Positions 4,217-27,793 of a stretch of 64,000 nt of DNA are shown piece after piece. The stretch covers positions 10,397,849-10,461,848 of the forward strand of contig OZ014412.1 of NCBI GenBank assembly GCA_963965975.1. Direction: 5' to 3'. The DNA is from Xestospongia bergquistia. Taxonomy: Eukaryota > Porifera > Demospongiae > Haplosclerida > Petrosiidae. Under the pieces are notes generated by a model. The model saw only the letters and a program-made list of their open reading frames with translations, did not search any database and had not been told where the DNA came from. The position numbers and the translations under genes were made by a program. Position 1 is the first letter of the stretch; every line of letters starts with the position of its first letter.

Positions 4217-7200
4217 ATGGCAGAGAATGAAGATAAAGGTAATTTGTAAATTTAAAGTACTAGTAAAACATTAGTTTATTCTCAGAAAACAAAATAAGCT
4301 TAAGGCGTTTGCGTCTAAATTGGCTTCTTACTTTACTACTCGGTGTTAACTTCACTGTTGGTTACTCGATGGCGCTCTCTACTCTGCACAAATTTATGAC
4401 CAATCCTAGAAATGAAACATGTGTAAGAGTTTATCATAAATTTAATGTTCTTACAGCATCTATATATCACCTACAGGGAAGTCCAGGTCTTGGAGAATCA
4501 GAAACAATGTACGCCATTGCATCAGGAATATACAGTGGAGGTGACATAGCTGGTTCATTAACAGCATCAATACTCCTCAATGTTCTCAGCTATCGATTCT
4601 TGCTTGCAATTGGCCCAATAGTACAAATATTAGGTTGTACCCTTTATGGACTGAGTATAAATGGATGGATGGTTATTGCAGGCCGATTCTTAATTGGTAT
4701 TAATACTGGATTAACAATGTCTTCAATAATGTCCTATTACACTGTCAGTAGCTGTATTCATGGGGAACAAGCCTTCAAGAAAAATTCAGGACTAAAAAAA
4801 AGGTTAATGATTGTCTATGGTATAGTCGTTACGTTATCATATCTACCATCAAATGGTGAGTGAGTGATGGAACATCTAATAGACAATGCACTATAGGCCA
4901 TAATGCATTATATATAGCGTTGATCTTTTATACTCCCATAGTAATACTTAGTCTCTTAGTCAATTACTGTATCGAAAAAGACTGTAAAGGACTTTGCATG
5001 TATGCAAGGTTGAATTTCCACTATTCAGAAACTCTATATGATATGCCCTATATATAGGCATACACAAATTATTATCTCCATTATATTACAGCATTGGTAG
5101 TTCTGGTATTTAAGTTTCCAGATGTTAACCAGTTCCGCTGGTTTTCATGGTTTCAAATTGCTTTTGGCATTGCCACTTTAATATTACTGATTTGCCTATT
5201 TAAGAACCACAAGATTGATCATCCAGTTGGACACAAATTCAACTGCACTAGAAAGAACAAGGAAGTTGGAATATCATCAAAGTCAGATGAAAAACTTAAT
5301 CATGTTAATTGGACTTGCTGGACTGCTTTAGTATCCTCACAGTTATATTTATACTAGCTTGCATATGGAAACATCTGTTACTTAAAAGTTGAAGTGTTTA
5401 ATTGTATTTATATGCACAATTAAAATTCCTTTAACAATTATGTATAGGTTGTAGTATACTTGCTTCTTGCTGCATATATAATTGACTCAGAAGTCACTGT
5501 ATTGGATACCCTCACTAGTCCTTTATTGAGTAATACATTTGGATTCTCAAGTAAAAATATTTCATACTTCCTTACGGGATCTCTAGCAATAGTACCAACT
5601 GCCAACTTTATTCTGTAAGATTGAGTTTACTTCAAATCATTTAATTTGAATGTATTTTATTCATTCTATGATAGTTTGTTACTGGAGAGATTTAGAGTAA
5701 GCAGTCGTGTTGTGTTGCTACTGTCATTGTTAATTGGAACAAGTGGATTGATTACTTTGGGTGATTGGCAATCAATATCAGATACCTCATGCAGCAACAT
5801 TTCAAATGTGTCTATTCAATCTAATATCAATAGCTGTAGTATAACTAGCTCCTGTGTTAACAGTACGTTTAATCCTAACACAACAATTTACTTTTACAAA
5901 ATAGACACATCGTTTGACTATAGTTCTTCCTGTACTTCCTGTGATACAGACTGTTTAGCACTTCAGTTATCTGAAGGTAGTCCTTGCACTATTACTGAGA
6001 CTCTTTTATTAATGAAGCAGCAAATGAAGAAAAACCAATGTATGATTCAAAATATTACCTATGCTTTATGCCACTTATTACCTGAAACTTTTGAGTCAAT
6101 TTTCAATCAGTCTGACAGAACAGTTACAACTGAATTAATTATTGATGATAATAATGTAATTTCAAGTAATCAGCAGATATGTGAATCATATGAAGACTGC
6201 TATTGGAACCAGGACTCATATATAACAGGTGATTACTGTGTAGACTGTCTACCTATCTGTAAAAGCAAATCAAAGTCATTGTCATTCATTCAAGCATGCA
6301 TAGGGGTAGGCTCAGTAACATTATCACTTTCAATGGGTCGCTACATACTCTTTCCTATTATGACTAAAGTATCTCCTCCTCAAAGTCAGGTCAGTAGCTA
6401 AACTTAAAACTATACCACAATCAATGACAGCTGTTTACACAGTAATTACTATAGAGATATTTAAATGGTTATGGAAACATGTAACAGTATATACTATATA
6501 AACATTATACAAGATTATTCTGCTTTTTAAAGCATGGCCAAACAAGCTATTCTTGTTTTTGTACAGGCAGTCACAACAAGTCTAGTAGTATTTGTACAAG
6601 CTCTTTCAAGATTAATTACACCATTATGGGGTAAGATAACACTGAAATAATTAGTCAAATACAGCAATAAGGTTTCACTGAAATTAATTTAGATTAGCTG
6701 TTGTATTTCACAGTAGTGTATATAATGTTTTCCATCCATTTTATTATTGTTTTGGACACTGTTAATGCTTCTAAAATTACTTTCTATGTATCAATAAAAG
6801 ATGCAGCTTTTTCTAAGTTATTCTTGCCAATATTTTTTTCACATAGCAAATTCGCTTTATATTGCATCAGGACATCATACTTTCTTGTTAATGGGTGTCA
6901 TGTTACTGTGTCAACTTCCTGTGTATATTGGTTACTGTCTGTTTTGCAGCCATTTAAGCTTCAAGAAGGTCAATGCACATCGACCATCTTTTTCAAGTGT
7001 AGTTCCTTTGGTATCAATTACAGCCATTGATGATGACAATATAAACAATGAAATAGAACAGAACCAAGTAAGTACAGATATTGAAGATTTTACAAAACAT
7101 GAAACTGCGATTGATTCATTTACAATTGAACATCAATGTTTTCAAATTAATGTTCTGGAAGAAAATATTCTTTCAGATACCTTTAAATCCAATTGTTTAG

Positions 7201-7232
7201 AGGATAATATTATTTATGAAACCCCAATTTAA
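4217..7232 (+). CDS. Major facilitator superfamily transporter, loosely MFSD8/CLN7-like (eight exons)
   Basis: A multi-pass membrane transporter; substrate unknown. Exons: 4217-4238, 4286-4855, 4897-4983, 5092-5330, 5448-5614, 5675-6389, 6567-6630 and 6847-7232. Phases fit throughout, giving 749 residues from the ATG at 4217. The N-terminal half reads as paired MFS helices (LLTLLLGVNFTVGYSMAL, then VIAGRFLIGINTGLTMSS, an MFS-like GRFLIGINTG block). Next comes a loop of about 170 residues rich in Cys and N-glycosylation sites (exon 6), further helices, and an acidic C-terminal tail ending IIYETPI. Layout resembles MFSD8/CLN7 (a lysosomal MFS protein of about 520 residues), but the long Cys-rich loop and extra length make it a divergent relative or another MFS family. 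Its second half is duplicated at 12213-13683. Confidence 0.7.
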
Positions 7233-7599
7233 ACTCTATAATCACTATTTTGTGATAACTTTCTTAATATTACATTAGATGCTAAATTCTTTTTGCTATT
7301 ATCTGTTGTCTGATTAATAATGCACTTGAATTAGATAATTTTATTTGGTATATTGTAGACTTGCTTACATTTATATTATTAGTGATGCAACATTATGTAT
7401 AATTAGTATTCACTTATCATTATATTTATAGTAATTTTGGTAAATGGTAAACATAATAAGGTTGATTTATCTATGTGTATGAAAGATTTTTTATTATTTT
7501 AGCTAATCTTAAGTCGTGTTGTTCATGAAGGAATTTTATAATATAGACAGTTTGTTCTTTGCATTAAGATTATGAATTTTCATTCTTACTTTCATCAAT

Positions 7600-8645: not shown

Positions 8646-11254
8646 TTAAAATTTTGAACATTCATATTGATGAGGAATAGTGGATGGAGACTCTTTTTTG
8701 CGCTTCATCCACCACATAATTAAAAAAATGACAAGTGTAGTAATAACAGCAGTAAGCAGAGACGAGAGCAGCATAGTGACTGGAATACTCACTATAAAAT
8801 ATATAATAATATATGACAGTATGCAACTAAGAACAAGTACCTGATAAACATGTACTCTGTCCTGTTTCAGTAGCTACAATATAACATAAAGTAATATAGG
8901 CTAATTTATATATACAACTACCTGGACACACAGGAGTTGAAGTCACCTTAATTATAGAGTTTGTAGTAATAAACAATGTAGCACTTACTGAGCTTGAAAT
9001 ACCTGCATATATAAAATAAATAAACTAATTGTAGCAAGTATATAATAATATTATATGAGATAGAGTATGTATATATACAAGCATTTTATTCTTTCACATT
9101 AATAATAATAAACTTTGAAAAAATATAAAAATAACATTAACTTTAGACTATATGATATCTTACTGCCATCATTATTAGTAAAGATCATTTCAATACTTGA
9201 TGGTGAAGCAAGATTGACACCACTCTCTGAAATAATTCCAATCTTATATGTTTCTTTGGGTTTTAAAATATCATCTTTGAAAACAAAGTAAACGTCTTCA
9301 TGTGTAGCATCAGGTTTAAAATAGACAGATTTCATTGAGAGATCATCTTCATCTACAGAATGCAATTAATAAATTTTTGATGTGATGTGTACATGTGAAC
9401 TAAGTAGATTCATGAATAGCTTTAACACACTGACATTTGCATTATTATTAACTATGCTCATGAAGCATGAGGTATCATGTAAAATCATTTAATCTATGCA
9501 GTATATTTATAATTCTTTTCTGTATATGCAAGAAACACTTAGATTATTTGTTTACTTTCTGACATATTGGCTCCCACTGAGAGAAATATATAAGAAAATC
9601 GAAAAAAAAATTAAATGTTTTTTGTAGTTCGGATATTAACATCTTACCTTTAGTTATATTCAATTGTACAGTTGTTGCATGACTGATATCTCCTGATCGA
9701 TGTACCAGAACACCTAAAAGGCCTTTATTGTTTTCTACACTTGAGTTATTAAGTTTGTAGAAAGTTTCTGCATAAAGAATACAAATAAAATTCTTTGCCC
9801 GTCACTTTACTAACTTACCACCAACAGGTTTCATCCCAAATCCAGCTGGATAGGCATAGCCTTTTTCATGATCTAATTCATTTTTCCAACCATACACAAT
9901 AACATTAAATGAGGCATCTGAATTTGCATGATTAATTGTATAATTAGACACATTAACATTGATACTGATGCCATATCCACAAATGTCATTTGAACTGCAT
10001 GTAATATTGTACCATTTACTTAGGTTACATTCTAGTGGCTTTCCATTCAATAAAATGTCAGTAGGATCAAATTTTGTTCGTACAGTTACGATAATATAAT
10101 GAACTTCACTTGTTAGCAGAGGTGCTTCATCTTGCATTTGTTGATCAGAATTATTATATACATCAGTACTAAATACGTGTTTGTTCAAATATTGACTGAC
10201 AGGAGCTATCCAAACCGAAACTGTACTGTTCTCACTGTTGTTAGTACTGAATCTACTGATATAGCTATACTGCATTACTGCAAATGGCCTATTAGACTGA
10301 ATGCAGCAATAAGAGTCTGCATCTAGTATGAATTCCGTATTTGTGTTATTGATTTCATTAAACTGAAGGTTAGATACAGTTCTATTTTTAGTAACTTCCG
10401 ATCCTGATGTACAATATATGGTAAAGTTAGTTCCTTCAAATCTCTGCCAGACTTTAATCATATAACCACTTCCGTTTTGAAATGGAACTACAAAAAAGTT
10501 GTAGCCCCATGTATAGGAAGGAGGGATCTGTTCAGTAATATGCTCAACACACTCATACAGGTCATTATTACAAATGTTATTAGTCACAAACCCTAATGGA
10601 TTAGTGGCTTCTACTTGAAGACCCTTAAGATTAAAGTCGTTCAATGGACTTAAAACGTTTTTGGTACTAACTGAACTTAAAATTTCACCAAGATAGCTTA
10701 TTTTCACGTACGTGTACGTGTTGCATGTAGCTACAGTTACCGAGTTGTTCATATCTGCTCCAATAGCATAGCTATATTTGGAGATGATTTTGTTTTTTAT
10801 TTGTGGTATAGCTAGAAAAGCAGCACTACTGCCCTGCATATAATTACTAAAAACGATGACCTGTACTACTTCAGATGCTTTTATGGATATGGTTTCATTA
10901 ATATCTCTTTGAAAGAAGTCATTTACAATTGTTCCAGCAGTCACTGTTCCGTTTTTATTGACCCCATTGGATCGAATTATTTCATAATCTGCAGAATCTT
11001 TAGGAGTAGTTAAAATAATTTTCACGCCATAGAGGCGACTATATGCCTGCTTAGCTGTAGGAAGAGCAAAACAAAAAAAATTCCATTGGTTGAGTTTGTC
11101 TCTGGGATATCTACAAAAAGATAAAGCTTATTTTGATTAAGAGCGCAAATTGTATATACATACCTTTGATTCTTTCATCAAAGTCTACAGCAGCATTGCT
11201 ATAACAATACCATATCATCATAAAGAAAACTACTTGTCCACTGACTATAATCAT
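8646..11254 (-). CDS. IgGFc-binding-domain / Calx-beta-like membrane protein, copy A (one frame lesion)
   Basis: Minus-strand gene of eight exons: 11164-11254, 9819-11110, 9648-9767, 9556-9576, 9164-9352, 8922-9002, 8841-8873 and 8646-8791. Exon 1 encodes a signal peptide (MIIVSGQVVFFMMIW...). The large exon 2 has the IgGFc_binding-type fold of FCGBP-like proteins: TTP near the start, HITEQIPPSYTWGYNFFVVP, then SNRPFAVMQYS. Exons 3-5 look Calx-beta-like. Exon 8 carries one TM helix (about 24 residues) followed by MKRKK and a short tail ending YECSKF. It is probably a surface or mucus-type adhesive protein (inference). Exon 2 is 1292 nt where phase requires 1293. The T run read at 11073-11080 has eight T where nine restore the frame, so downstream codons are out of frame: a real disruption or a homopolymer sequencing error. 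Confidence 0.75.
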
Positions 11255-12212: not shown

Positions 12213-13683
12213 TTACTTTGGGTGATTGGCAATCAATATCAGATACCTCATGCAGCAACATTTCAAATGTGTCTATTCAATCTAATATCAATAGCTGTAG
12301 TATAACTAGCTCCTGTGTTAACAGTACGTTTAATCCTAACACAACAATTTACTTTTACAAAATAAACACATCGTTTGACTATAGTTCTTCCTGTACTTCC
12401 TGTGATACAGACTGTTTAGCACTTCAGTTATCTGAAGGTAGTCCTTGCACTATTACTGAGACTCTTTTATTAATGAAGCAGCAAATGAAGAAAATCCAAT
12501 GTACAATTCAAAATATTACCTATGCTTTATGCCACTTATTACCTGAAACTTTTGAGTCAATTTTCAATCAGTCTGACAGAACAGTTACAACTGAATTAAT
12601 TATTGATGATAATAATGTAATTTCAAGTAATCAGCAGATATGTGAATCATATGAAGACTGCTATTGGAACCAGGACTCATATATAACAGGTGATTACTGT
12701 GTAGACTGTCTACCTATCTGTAAAAGCAAATCAAAGTCATTGTCATTCATTCAAGCATGCATAGGGGTAGGCTCAGTAACATTATCACTTTCAATGGGTC
12801 GCTACATACTCTTTCCTATTATGACTAAAGTATCTCCTCCTCAAAGTCAGGTCAGTAGCTAAACTTAAAACTATACCACAATCAATGACAGCTGTTTACA
12901 CAGTAATTACTATAGAGATATTTAAGTGGTTATGGAAACATGTAACAGTATATACTATATAAACATTATACAAGATTATTCTGCTTTTTAAAGCATGGCC
13001 AAACAAGCTATTCTTGTTTTTGTACAGGCAGTCACAACAAGTCTAGTAGTATTTGTACAAGCTCTTTCAAGATTAATTACACCATTATGGGGTAAGATAA
13101 GACTGAAATAATTAGTCAAATGTACAGCAATAAGGTTTCACTGAAATTAATTTAGACTAACTGTTGTATTTCACAGTACTGTATATAATGTTTTCCATCC
13201 ATTTTATTATTGTTTTGGACGATGTTAATGCTTCTAAAATCCCTTTCTATGTATCAATAAAAGATGCAACTTTTTCTAAGTTATTCTTGCCAATATTTTC
13301 ATATAGCAAATTCGCTTTATATTGCATCAGGACATCATACTTTCTTGTTAATGAGTGTCATGTTACTGTGTCAACTTCCTGTGTATATTGGTTACTGTCT
13401 GTTTTGCAGCCATTTAAGCTTCAAGAAGGTCAATGCACATCGACCATCTATTTCAAGTGTAGCTCCTTTGGTATCAATTACAGCCATTGATGATGACAAT
13501 ATAAACAATGAAATAGAACAGAGCCAAGATATTGAAGATTTTACAAAACATGAAACTGCAATTGATTCATTTACAATTGAACCTCAATGTTTTCAAATTA
13601 ATGTTCTGGAAGAAAATATTCTTTCAGATACCTTTAAATCCAATTGTTTAGAGGATAATATTATTTATGAAACCCCAATTTAA
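12213..13683 (+). pseudogene. 5'-truncated duplicate of the MFS transporter (exons 6-8 only)
   Basis: Copies of transporter exons 6 (12213-12850, missing its first ~77 nt), 7 (13028-13091) and 8 (13307-13683), with the same splice sites and no stop codons. Changes from copy A are few: one AAC-to-ATC change near 12497, a nearby ATG-to-ACA change, and a 12-nt in-frame deletion in exon 8. Exons 1-5 are absent because the duplication junction falls inside exon 6. Without the N-terminal helices it cannot encode a complete MFS transporter. It could be transcribed as a truncated protein, but no start with a signal or TM helix is visible upstream. Near-perfect identity to copy A points to recent origin or gene conversion. 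Confidence 0.8.
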
Positions 13684-14189
13684 ACTCTATAATCACTATT
13701 TTGTGATAACTTTCTTAATATTATATTAGATGCAAATTTCTTTTTTGCTGTTATCAGTTGTCTGATTAATAATGCACTTGAATTAGATAATTTTATTTGG
13801 TATACTTTTGTAGACTTGCTTACACTTATATTATTAGTGATGCAATATTATGTACAATTAATATTCACTCATCATTATATTTGCAATTTATAGTAATTTT
13901 AACTCTTTTCTATATTATTATATATTTTGTACCTGAATTACTTTAAATTTGAAGAGTTTAATTGTTGAGTTGAGATTCTAACATTTTGTTACAATATAAT
14001 ATATGTTAGTGTGTGTATTAAAGATTATAAATTCGTAAAGAGTAGCTTTATATAACTAAAAAACAAGTAAAACAACTATTTCATAAAATTCTAATGCATT
14101 ATTTTACCACTAGCAACTCTAAACACTGCTTCCAAATTAATCAAAATTTCTATTACAGTATAATTAATATTAATGTTCATATTCATATA

Positions 14190-15678: not shown

Positions 15679-18261
15679 TTAAAACTTTGAACATTCATAT
15701 TCACAAGGAGTAGTGGATGGAGACTCTTTTTTGCGCTTCATCCACCACATGATGAAAAAAATGACAAGAGTAGTAATAACAGCAGATGAGAGTAGCATAG
15801 TGACTGGAATACTCACTGAAATATACAATAATATGTGACTTCATACAACTAATAACAAAAAGTACCTGATAAACATGTGCTCTGTCCTGTTTCAGTAGCT
15901 ACAATAAAATATAAAGCTATATAGGCTAATTTATATATACAACTACCTGGACACACAGGAGTTGAAGTCACTTTAATCGTAGTGTTTGTAGTAGTAAACA
16001 ATGTAGCACTTACTGAGCTTGAACTACCTAAATAAGTTAACTAATAATTGTAACAAGCATAATAATAGTTATATAAGATGTACAAGCATTTATTCTTTCA
16101 CATTAATGATAATGAACTTTGAATAAATATAAAAATAACATTAACATTTAATGATTAGACTATGTGATATCTTACTGCCATCATTAGTAAAGATCATTTC
16201 AATACTTGATGGTGAAACAAGATTGACACCACTGCCTGAAATTATTTCAATCTTAAATGTTTCATTGGGCTTTAAAATATCATCTTTGAAAACAAAGTAA
16301 ACATCTTCATGGGTAGCATCAGATTTAAAATAGACAGATTTCATTGAGAAATCATCTTCGTCTACAGAATGCAATTATACAATTAATAAATTTTTGATAT
16401 GATGTGTACATGTGAAGAACATGCATGAAGGCTTTAACACATTCACATTTTCACTATTATTAAACTATGCTCATGAAGAATGAGGTATCATGTAAAATTA
16501 TTTAACCTATGCAGTAAATTTATAATTCATTTCTATCTATATGCAAGAAACACTTAGATTATTTGTGTTTTTTATAAGCTCACTTTCTGACATGTTGGCT
16601 CCCACTGAGAGAAATATATAAGAAAATTGAAAAAAGAAAATGTTTTTTTGCAGTTCCAATGTTAACATCTTACCTTTAGTTATATTCAATTGTACAGTTG
16701 TTGCATGACTGATATCTCCTGATCGATATACCTGAACACCTAAAAGGCCTTTATTGTTTTCTATAATTGAGTTATTAAGTCTGTAGAAAGTTTCTGCCAT
16801 ACATAAAGAATACAAATAAAACTATTTGCCTCTCACTTACCACCAACAGGGTTCATCCCATATCCAGCTGGATAGGCATAGCCCTTTTCATGATCTTGTT
16901 CATATGCCCAACCATATACAATAACATTGATTGAAGCATTTGAATCAGTATGGTTAATTGTATAATTAGACACTTGAGCATCCATACTGATGCCATATCC
17001 ACAAATGTCATTTGACCTGTATGTGATAATGTACCATTTACTTAAGTTAGGTTCTAATGGCTTTCCATTCGATAAAATGGCAGTAGGACTAAATTTCCTT
17101 CGTACAGTTACAATGATATAATGAAATTCACTTGTCGGTATTCCTGTTTGTGAATCATATACATCAGTACTAAATATGTGTTCATTCAAATATTGACTGA
17201 CAGGAGGTATCCAAACTGAAATCGTACTGTTCTTCTCACTGTCACTAGTGTCACTATACTGCATTACTGCCAATGGCCTATTAGACTGAATGCAGCAATA
17301 AGAATTTGCATCTAGTGTGAAATGCTCCCTTGTGTTATTGATTTCATGAAACTGAAGGCTAGATATAGTTTTGTTTTTAGTAACATTTGATCCTGATGTA
17401 CAATATATGGTAAAATTAGTTCCTTCAAATCTCTGCCAGACTTTAATGATATAACCACTTCTGTTTTGAAATGGAACTACAAAAAAGTTATAACCCCATG
17501 TATAGGAAGGAGGTATCTGTTCAGTGATATGCTCAATACAATTTGCATCATTTTCGCCACATACATAATTAGTCATGAACCCTAATGGATTAGTGGCTTC
17601 TGCTTGAATACCTTCAAGATTAAAACCATTCACTGGACTTAAAACGCTTTCGACACTAACTGAATTTAAAGCTCTACTTGACGCTAGACCAGCGTAGCTG
17701 ATTTTCGTGTACGTATAATCACAGGTAGCGATAGTTATCGAGTTCTGCTCCAATAGCATAGCTATATTTGGAAATTGTTTTGTCTTTTATCAGTGGTACA
17801 GCTAGAAAAGCAGCACTAGCCTGTGGTATCACAGAATTACTAAAAACGATGACCTGGACAACTTCAGATGAATCGATTGCTTTTACAGATATGACTTCAG
17901 AGTTAGTAACAGGTGATCGTAATATTTCTTTTTTAATAGCCCCAGCAGTTATTGTCCCCTTTCTAATGACCTCACTATTATTGAACCGAATTTCATAATC
18001 TGTAGAAACGTTAGGTGTAGTTAAAAAAATTGTTATATGAAATTCGTGATTGTTTGCATGCTTAGGAAAAACAAAACAAAATTCGTTTCCACTTGGAGTG
18101 TTTGTCACTGGGACATCTACAAAAAAGATAAGCATGCATACACTGGTTCAAAATAATAATTATATTATACCTTTGATTCTTTCATCAAAGTCCACAGTGG
18201 CATTGCTATAACAATACCATATTGTCACAAAAAAAGCTAGTTGTCCATTAACTCGGATCAT
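15679..18261 (-). pseudogene. IgGFc-binding-domain / Calx-beta-like membrane protein, copy B (8-nt frame lesion)
   Basis: Same eight-exon plan as copy A: 18171-18261, 16841-18116, 16674-16793, 16584-16604, 16176-16361, 15947-16027, 15866-15898 and 15679-15815. The signal peptide starts MIRVNGQLAFF. The IgGFc-binding-type exon shows HITEQIPPSYTWGYNFFVVP and the gene ends with the TM helix, MKRKK and YECSKF. Exon 2 is 1276 nt where 1284 fits the phases. Aligned with copy A, eight nt are missing between 17743 and 17744, just after the SYAIGA block, which throws the frame into a TGA a few codons later. The rest of exon 2 is open in the shifted frame. The TM exon lacks 9 nt in frame relative to copy A. 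Protein differences from copy A are common, so the two copies are well diverged. Confidence 0.75.
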
Positions 18262-24587: not shown

Positions 24588-26918
24588 AGTACAAATATAT
24601 TTCTTAAATGATATTTTAATTGATACAGGGCACATTCGATGTATTTTTAATGATATAAACAATAATACGGGCAATTAAGATGTTGTTCAAGTATATTTTA
24701 AGTTGACACAATTTATCGCTCTGTTTTATAAATATAAGTACCATCATATAATACACAAAACATTCTTCTTACAGGAAACGCACAACTATGAACTGTAAAA
24801 AATAATTGAAGGAAGTATGAGACCTTTACAACTTAGAAAATATAACAAAAAGCACATCTTTAATTTGACACCAGCATAGCATGACCAACAAAGTAATAAT
24901 TTCAGAAGCTAAAATAAATTTAAGAGCACACATAAAATAGAATAAACACAACATATTAATGATTCTAATTGGTTTGATTCCAACCTCAACTTCAAATTCT
25001 CCCAGTTTCATGTGCTTTACATGTGACCATTAAGTATACAACTAAATGTTTACACATATCAAAGAAGTTGTACAGAACTTTGACTTGGAGACCAGCCCTA
25101 ACTTCATCATATCAGATTCCAACTGGCATTGATTCAAATTAGTTTTCCTATTCCTACTTAAAAGGAATGCTTCTATCATTAAGATATATGATGCATAAAA
25201 CTGGAACAATTACTAATTTATCATTTTGTTTGTGTGGCATGGGATGCAAAGTACTTTATACAAACATGTATATGAGTGGGCAGGTTTCCATTTCACTCTG
25301 GAATTATTAATCACTTTTGATGGACTACAAGTAAACAATAAGCTATATCTAGAAGGATGACATATAGCCATCTCAAGAAAGTTATAATGAAATCTCATCC
25401 ATGTTAAACATCTATATCTAAGAACTTATAGATACTTTCAAGAGAAAAAAGTATCCTCTAAGATCATTCATCATTATGCAGCAATATATTAGAGACAGAT
25501 GTTCAACCAACACCAAGAAAAGAGATATATTGAAGTGGACAATATATAGGCTATAAATTAAAGCCTAAAGGACAGAATGGAAACTGGCTATATATATATG
25601 TATGATGAAACACATCAGTGACTATATAGTATATAAATGTTTGGACTTTAAATATACCACACTATTGTACTACATTTACTCGCATGTTGGGAATATAGTA
25701 AGTTGACGTTTTGGGAGATATTATTATGGGAAATTGACGTTTTGATAGATGGTTTATCTAAAGTTGACAATATGATGGTTTTATAATTGAAATAATAGGA
25801 GTTAGACCTAACCACGTATAAAATATAAAGTCCTCCCCAAGTGATTTTTCTATTAGTCTTTTTACAATATAACATTTTTTGTTTTGTTAATGTTTATTTC
25901 CTTATATTCATCTTTTGCTTATTTTTTGTATTGTCTAGCTTTGTTTATCTTTTACCTAAACTTTTCTTATTTGTTTATTTCTTTGATTATAAATATATTT
26001 AAGCTTTTTATATATTTTTGCTTTTAACTTTTGAATTTATTTCTTATTTCAACCTAATAATAATAATCTATTAAAATTATTTCATCATTTATTCCATTTA
26101 TTATAAGTATGCTTTCTTTATTCCAACATCACATTGATTTTACCAAATAGGTTTGGTGCATGATAATTTAAAATTAATTGTATGGACAACACAATATTAA
26201 AGGATTGGTAAACACGCCCATATATATTAAAACAACTTATTTGTTAAGACTTGCCCCCCACTGAATAGTTTACATTCTCCTAGTTAATAATAAAGCAACT
26301 AACTATTGACTATAATATGAATGTAACATGATCAGCATGAGACCTATCAAAACACATGGATACGTACTACATTTTCACATTATTTGGTGTAATGATTATA
26401 GTATCATGTATTTGTAATCACTGACTATAGATACTTGTATGCATTCATATACACATTCATATACAGTTAGCATAATTGTCACATATAGGAATGGAGTATA
26501 GTATGTAGAAATGTCAAAGCAATAGATAGTCCCATGGGATATGTCTTATTTCAGTAGATCTTATCACACATATATTATATAAACTGCTGCTTCTATAATT
26601 TCATTATTGAAGCTATGACAGCAAAAGACTGTTTTCATATAAACTCCACACTTGTACAAACCAAATCCCATGGGACATGCCCTATCAGTTTATTTCATCA
26701 CCCTATATATACTTAACGTTTTTAGAACACTATGTATAATGTAGTCACATCATGATCATTATCAGTTAAATGCCTTTGTTCCTAGACCAATGTATTGATA
26801 TTAGTAGATATCACAATCAAATTATAAATTATAAATTAATAACACACAAAATAAAGTAGAAGAGGCAAAAATTTTAAGGAAAAACGTATTTAACTATATA
26901 CCATGCAATGTATAGTAT
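24588..26918. other. Long intergenic region, no gene recognised
   Basis: AT-rich sequence with only short chance frames. Two loose features: repeats of a GTTGACGTTTTG-like motif at 25704-25770, and inverted TCCCATGGGA-containing segments at about 26528-26545 and 26665-26690 that may be the ends of a decayed foldback element. It should contain the 3' ends of the converging Ig/FN3 and avidin-like genes. Confidence 0.55.
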
Positions 26919-27531
26919 TCACAGTTCAGTGTTTTTACGAAAATCACAATTCTCTGATATTTTTTTAAAGGTATCTTTGCCAATGTAAGTGGATTCCCAG
27001 TTGTTCTCTGGTGTTGTCTGGACAGTGAGGAGCCATGTTGTGTAGATTAGAATGCGATCCTTTTCAGGTTGTAACTGCCACTGCCCAGACCATGTAGCAG
27101 TTCATTCAGCAGTCTGATACTGATTACGATACACAACAGTCCTGCATATTTAATTATTTAAGAATTAATCTGACATCAAATGTTGACTATGCTATCAAAT
27201 CTACACATGTTATAAGCTCCTTACCATCCTAATGTAGCACCTGTTTCTGATCCTCCAGTATCATATCTTCCAACTAAGGCATATTCGTTTGTGGCATTCC
27301 CAACAGCTGAATTATACCATCCATTAAACTGACCAGGATATGGACTTCTTGAATATATACACATGTGAGAGCCTAACTCATTTTTCCACTCTCCAGAAAC
27401 TGGAATGTTAGCTACTGAGTTTGTTGCTACTACAGCAATAATGGTTGCAAAAATACCTGTAAACCTACATCAGAATATTATGATATAACATAATATACTC
27501 ATATATTTAGTAGCTTACTGAGTTATCCTCA
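26919..27531 (-). CDS. Avidin/streptavidin-family protein with an in-frame UGA at the Ser88 position
   Basis: Three exons: 27518-27531, 27225-27464 and 26919-27141. Phases fit, giving 158 codons including the internal UGA. A signal peptide (MRITQFTGIFATIIAVVA) precedes an avidin beta-barrel. Against streptavidin: WKNELGS keeps N23, L25 and S27; GWYNSAVGN keeps Y43, S45 and N49; WSGQ keeps W92; TTWLLT keeps W108 and L110; NNWEST keeps W120; KDTFKK keeps D128. W79 is Tyr. Codon 98 (27104-27102) is TGA exactly where streptavidin has Ser88, and the T90 equivalent is Ala. The downstream 61 codons stay in frame to a TGA at 26921-26919. Likely a secreted biotin-binding defence protein (family inference), disabled by one nonsense change unless this is an allele or read error. 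No clear alternative splice skips the codon. Confidence 0.88.
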
Positions 27532-27771
27532 TATTTATGATCAATGCCTCCTAAAAGTTATAAAATTGAGCTCCAATAGCTTCGCTTTAAATACAACATA
27601 TTGCGGCGCAACCGATGCTGTTCCGATATTCAACTTATCACGATGTACCGCGTATTTCAAAACTCAGGACCGCAGCTTCGTTCACCAAGCAGATCTCGTC
27701 CTATCATTTTTTATAGATATATCGATTCCACAGTACCAGTAACCGGAGTCATTAACTTAAATCAGAATAAA

Positions 27772-27793
27772 ATGGGGAACCAGTGCTTCACAG
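27772..27793 (+). CDS. Possible short first exon (MGNQCFT..)
   Basis: ATGGGGAACCAGTGCTTCAC is followed by a good GTATGT donor and lies in a locally less AT-rich, promoter-like stretch (27600-27770), 240 bp from the divergent avidin-like start. MGNQC would be an N-myristoylation/palmitoylation signal. No second exon was recognised between 27800 and 29400, so the gene is unconfirmed. Confidence 0.25.

Follow-up and report, generated by a model that had tools for sequence, protein, structure and literature searches.

A small family of streptavidin-like avidin genes in the sponge Xestospongia bergquistia, one with an in-frame UGA at the biotin-pocket position Ser88

Streptavidin of Streptomyces avidinii (L026) shares the AVGN, WSGQ and DTF blocks with the sponge gene described here, which differs from it in a UGA at position 88, in Tyr79 and Ala90, in its two introns and in a Cys pair of the animal genes. 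Streptavidin C1 of Streptomyces cinnamonensis (PDB 7cpz), the best PDB match to the sponge gene apart from two linked-dimer streptavidins, has Tyr79 and Ala90 as well, but it carries Ser at position 88 and forms a separate group next to streptavidin in the tree. Its Kd for biotin is about 3 pM (PMC7924230). The vertebrate avidins (chicken avidin, xenavidin and zebavidin) belong to the same family and are encoded, like the sponge gene, by intron-bearing genes. For zebavidin, PMC3811995 gives four exons of 87, 211, 120 and 42 bp; counting from the start codon would yield phases of 0, 1 and 1, compared with three exons and phases 2 and 2 in the sponge. The zebavidin count is unsure because the total of the four lengths is not divisible by three. 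Young nonsense pseudogenes and null alleles in animal gene families likewise combine a single stop in a kept frame with an open paralogue elsewhere, and nothing distinctive sets the present case apart from them. Judged by title, none of the papers listed in searches of the open literature (in one of them 20 of 1,497) appears to deal with sponge avidin genes, and the word "avidin" occurs 0 times in the main text of the Amphimedon paper (PMC4784904).

The window, i.e. the whole stretch of 64,000 nucleotides analysed, covers positions 10397849-10461848 of contig C2 (OZ014412.1) in an assembly of 146 Mb and 21 contigs. Matches to Wnt, an animal protein family, occur at three places in this genome (on C6, C9 and C13; nine matches) and in none of 14 control genomes, which marks it as that of an animal; GC content, compactness and the small Wnt set would suit a sponge. 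Its avidin gene, hereafter the C2 gene, runs on the minus strand from 27532 to 26919 in three exons. Exon 1 (27519..27532), predicted from an ATG and a GT donor in phase 2, contributes 14 coding bases and the start of an apparent signal peptide. It is followed by intron 1 (27465..27518; 54 bp, GTAAGC..TGTAG), and an intron of the same phase also fits the paralogue C9. Exon 2 (27225..27464) encodes the N-terminal part of the avidin domain (Pfam Avidin, E 3.4e-11). Intron 2 (27142..27224; 83 bp) splits the Trp codon of an LGW motif, and its position and phase are identical in C9, C7a and C7b, with splice sites read by eye. The C-terminal part of the domain lies in exon 3 (26919..27141; E 4.8e-8, the stop being entered as X), which ends with NTEL and the terminal TGA at 26921-26919. 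Both introns have GT..AG ends and are in phase 2; the first-pass annotation had noted two introns in phase. With the exons joined and X placed at the stop, the Pfam Avidin model (PF01382) is matched at E 8.2e-25 and 87.9 bits against a curated cut-off of 24, and the C2 gene is one of a small set of avidin genes in this animal genome. An open reading frame on the plus strand, starting at 27772 (MGNQCFTG...) and with a possible splice donor, lies head to head with the avidin gene at 240 bases from its start; a shared promoter is possible.

The frame comprises 159 codons in all. It is interrupted at codon 98 by a TGA (27102..27104; minus strand, 27110-27090: GCT GAA TGA ACT GCT ACA TGG), so that a complete avidin domain is not encoded in one frame. 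This TGA, whose presence in an avidin-family gene had been reported from the first reading, is the sole disabling change seen. The frame behind it is clean as claimed; it holds 60 sense codons, and the 61 counted earlier are reached only by including the terminal stop. In an alignment of 37 rows, the C2 gene included, the stop occupies the column of streptavidin Ser88, in agreement with the first-pass annotation. The other 36 rows show Ser in 34 cases, Thr in one and Arg in one, and Cys in none.

The biotin pocket was compared at 17 positions that we take to represent the contact residues. All of these are streptavidin-like in the C2 gene, with the same residues at 23, 27, 43, 45, 47, 49, 92, 108, 120 and 128, except for the stop at 88 and for Tyr79 and Ala90, which are Trp and Thr in streptavidin; the pocket set described as nearly full is so apart from these three positions. 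The Tyr79/Ala90 pair is also present in seven of the bacterial rows fetched (six Streptomyces loci and 7cpz). Decay of binding through W79Y and T90A was considered and rejected, as these seven rows read the same and streptavidin C1 binds biotin tightly. The C2 gene and the group of streptavidin C1 apparently acquired Tyr79 and Ala90 convergently, because the tree sets streptavidin C1 in its own group beside streptavidin; this hints that sites 79 and 90 change as a pair. The coincidence of the stop with a pocket residue had been stressed; its position stands, but 60 codons of the frame, codon 98 among them, are one base from a stop and eight of these 60 are pocket codons. A nonsense change would therefore land on a pocket codon with a chance of about 13% by this simple, unweighted count, and the location needs no explanation.

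Three further gene types occur in the same genome, none of them with a stop at the Ser88 column. The open gene C9 (L009; C9:6330476-6329984) has introns in the same phase as the C2 gene, carries TCA (Ser) at the Ser88 column and, among the pocket positions compared, has the streptavidin residue everywhere except for Asp at 49. C7a and C7b are present in two copies each, in a tandem repeat with units about 15 kb apart. C7a has Ser at column 88 in both copies, with TCA in the copy at L010, where the codons were read out; the proposal that the intact codon was TCA is borne out by C9 and this C7a copy. The C7b copies show Arg and no stop at this column. Trp108 and Trp120 are lost in C7a. Both C7a copies (L010 about 1627-1900; L011 about 1641-1915) have a TAA directly after the shared C-terminal Cys, sooner than in the other types, and an in-frame HCEL past this TAA is followed by further codons rather than by a stop. 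Partial copies of avidin exons were seen further along both C7 arrays (L010 about 6172, L011 about 6101; C7:6888737-6888802 and 6903621-6903707). A Cys pair, one in an MCIY-like block and one near the C-terminus, is common to all four types.

At the amino acid level the C2 gene is 46% identical to streptavidin (52/113) and 45% to streptavidin C1 (53/118), against 31% for xenavidin (35/112), 34% for part of chicken avidin (32/93) and 23–24% for the Xanthomonas and Burkholderia avidins (32/137 and 34/139). The greater closeness to streptavidin than to chicken avidin noted from the sequence is thereby upheld. The same holds for the shared AVGN, WSGQ and DTF blocks, but not for NNWEST, which reads NAWKST in streptavidin. 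In the tree, the four animal genes group together (99/99), and a weak branch (73/84) sets this clade on the side of streptavidin; long branches, two of them animal rows, drew a warning from the program, and the bacterial rows had been fetched with patterns taken from the animal sequences, so that their sampling is biased. Among 396 genomes from the phylum of Streptomyces olivoreticuli (G001), an avidin match was returned by this genome alone. Plasmid sequences searched with the C2 gene at E up to 10 gave 88 records, of which two from Streptomyces were at 41% and the other matches listed had E ≥ 8e-3, some plainly not avidins; with C9 as query, two Streptomyces records at 39–40% were obtained. 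The 36 pattern matches in viral contigs included no relative. A horizontal origin followed by gain of introns had been offered for testing. The streptavidin-like sequence and the phase-2 introns fit a bacterial origin, and horizontal transfer is plausible, if weakly supported: the animal rows do fall on the streptavidin side, but the branch value of 73/84 and the biased sampling limit what this placement conveys. The exon/intron comparison with zebavidin, the tree and the identities are consistent with a separate gain of introns; they do not prove transfer.

The remainder of the C2 gene is well kept. In a set of 28 streptavidin-type rows, of which two are identical, thirty columns never vary; 29 are left when column 88 is omitted. 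The C2 gene retains 17/18 of these before and 11/11 after the stop (28/29 in total), C9 15/18 and 11/11, C7a 15/18 and 7/11, and C7b 14/18 and 5/11. The end branches of the tree measure 0.27 for both C2 and C9, 1.14 for C7a and 1.69 for C7b. Between the C2 gene and C9, pairwise dN/dS (Nei–Gojobori) is 0.385 over 126 codons (bootstrap 0.21–0.65), with 0.42 before the stop and 0.34 after it (58 codons); since dS is high (0.9), these ratios mostly reflect the time before the lesion. Tajima-type counts against a streptavidin consensus gave five changes in C2 and three in C9 (p 0.73), and after the stop four and zero (p 0.125), the lone hint of relaxation. When C7a served as outgroup, the counts were 9 and 14, and 3 against 3 after the stop. 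Relaxed selection on the C2 gene was accordingly set aside, four changes against none being too few to show it.

The rest of the frame offers 84 possible single-base nonsense changes. At 0.01 neutral changes per site, the frame would have escaped all of them with a chance of 0.76, and at 0.05 with a chance of 0.25; the absence of a second stop therefore makes the lesion probably young, although a base error or recoding would predict the lack of a second lesion equally well. Decay is also seen nearby, in the Trp108 and Trp120 losses of C7a, the partial copies in the C7 arrays and an unrelated, frame-shifted tandem gene in the window itself. The latter, an IgGFc-binding-domain gene at 16836-18147 on the minus strand, has an 8-base gap that shifts its frame relative to the tandem copy at 9805-11127 and is apparently a second broken gene in the window. 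The window also holds a duplicated block of 1.68 kb (5752-7427 and 12213-13882; 97% identity) near a sugar-transporter-like open reading frame.

We consider it likely that the TGA arose very recently as a nonsense allele, which has either just been fixed or is still segregating; the stop as such probably represents the ordinary loss of a gene. The C2 gene would have encoded a streptavidin-like, secretory and presumably biotin-sequestering protein with an apparent signal peptide, and it would have been under purifying selection until very recently. A nonsense change, if the allele is real, would then have stopped the gene at codon 98, leaving a predicted product of 97 residues that lacks the contact positions 92, 108, 120 and 128 together with the later strands and would be expected to be null. 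With the stop placed by the model in the last exon, the transcript would not be expected to undergo exon-junction-dependent mRNA decay. The first-pass annotation had left the lesion as very recent, polymorphic, an error or recoded; the first three fit the conserved frame downstream, whereas recoding finds neither a convincing SECIS element downstream nor a Cys at this position in the 37 rows.

A base error in the assembly, with the gene in truth intact, is the alternative to be taken most seriously, although we regard it as unlikely. An error would be in keeping with a frame of 159 codons in which nothing else is damaged and which is conserved to a similar degree before and after the TGA. The C2 gene moreover occupies a single place in the assembly, so that no second haplotype offers a comparison: a DNA search of the sponge's own genome returned only the place in the window and two matches to C9 exons (73% and 70%). 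Against this, substitution errors away from simple repeats are unusual in long-read assemblies, and the TGA would have to be one of them. If instead the stop were real and had been kept, the 97-residue secreted product might have taken on a new role. The mRNA may escape decay with its stop in the last exon, and nothing else speaks specifically for such a product; a selected truncation would not for long have maintained the 11/11 invariant columns downstream, and we hold this reading to be improbable.

Reading of the UGA as an amino acid, by selenocysteine insertion or programmed readthrough, would yield a full-length protein from the 60 codons that are open and conserved past it. The genome contains one SECIS match above the Rfam cut-off (C2:8770329; 133 of 3264 candidates were scored), so that the selenocysteine machinery is likely to be present. 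Over the window, Rfam models gave no match at gathering score. A permissive search of 25700-27480 (E up to 10) yielded nothing but a weak snoRNA-like match to the plus strand. A custom scan for quartet-plus-stem elements, with one positive control and with 20 shuffles of two-base blocks as a rough control, recovered the genome's own SECIS (L017; −12.5). In the 3 kb downstream of the gene it found only three weak stems, the best at −7.7; the shuffles gave 0 to 4 stems each, and two of the 20 (−9.2 and −9.4) were better than the best real stem. A selenoprotein was consequently rejected, with no convincing SECIS in the window or in the 3 kb downstream and with Cys at column 88 in 0/36 homologues, or 0/37 rows with the C2 gene counted. 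Any form of recoding also has to accommodate UGA as the true terminator of the C2 gene, C9 and C7b, and the base that follows the UGA is A, whereas known strong readthrough sites have CUA after it. We therefore judge recoding very improbable. Still harder to credit is the joint proposal that in an animal lineage a streptavidin-type gene from actinobacteria acquired two introns and a KDEL-like tail, placing avidins in the secretory pathway, with the UGA of one member decoded into a full-length protein at a regulated level. Transcripts that splice around codon 98 are hardly to be expected, as the codon sits 37 bases into exon 3 in a stretch needed by the barrel, and use of one AG-ended acceptor just downstream, which was followed by eye (after TCTGGGCAG), would shift the frame into an early stop.

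Three of the gene types encode endings in -EL, namely SDEL in C9, NTEL in C2 (26919-26933, beyond the UGA) and HSEL in C7b (L010 and L011). We take SDEL to fit the KDEL-type ER-retrieval pattern, and NTEL and HSEL to be looser versions of it. This suggests, on the strength of the tails, that avidins of this genome, at least that of C9, may be subject to ER retrieval. According to a survey of avidins the known eukaryotic members are secreted, and an ER-retained avidin would therefore be unusual.

With the nonsense allele as the likely account of the stop, the main interest lies in the family to which the C2 gene belongs: streptavidin-like avidins in an animal genome, with introns of their own, a shared Cys pair and one ER-retrieval-like tail. 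These genes are relevant to the question of how avidins arose in animals.
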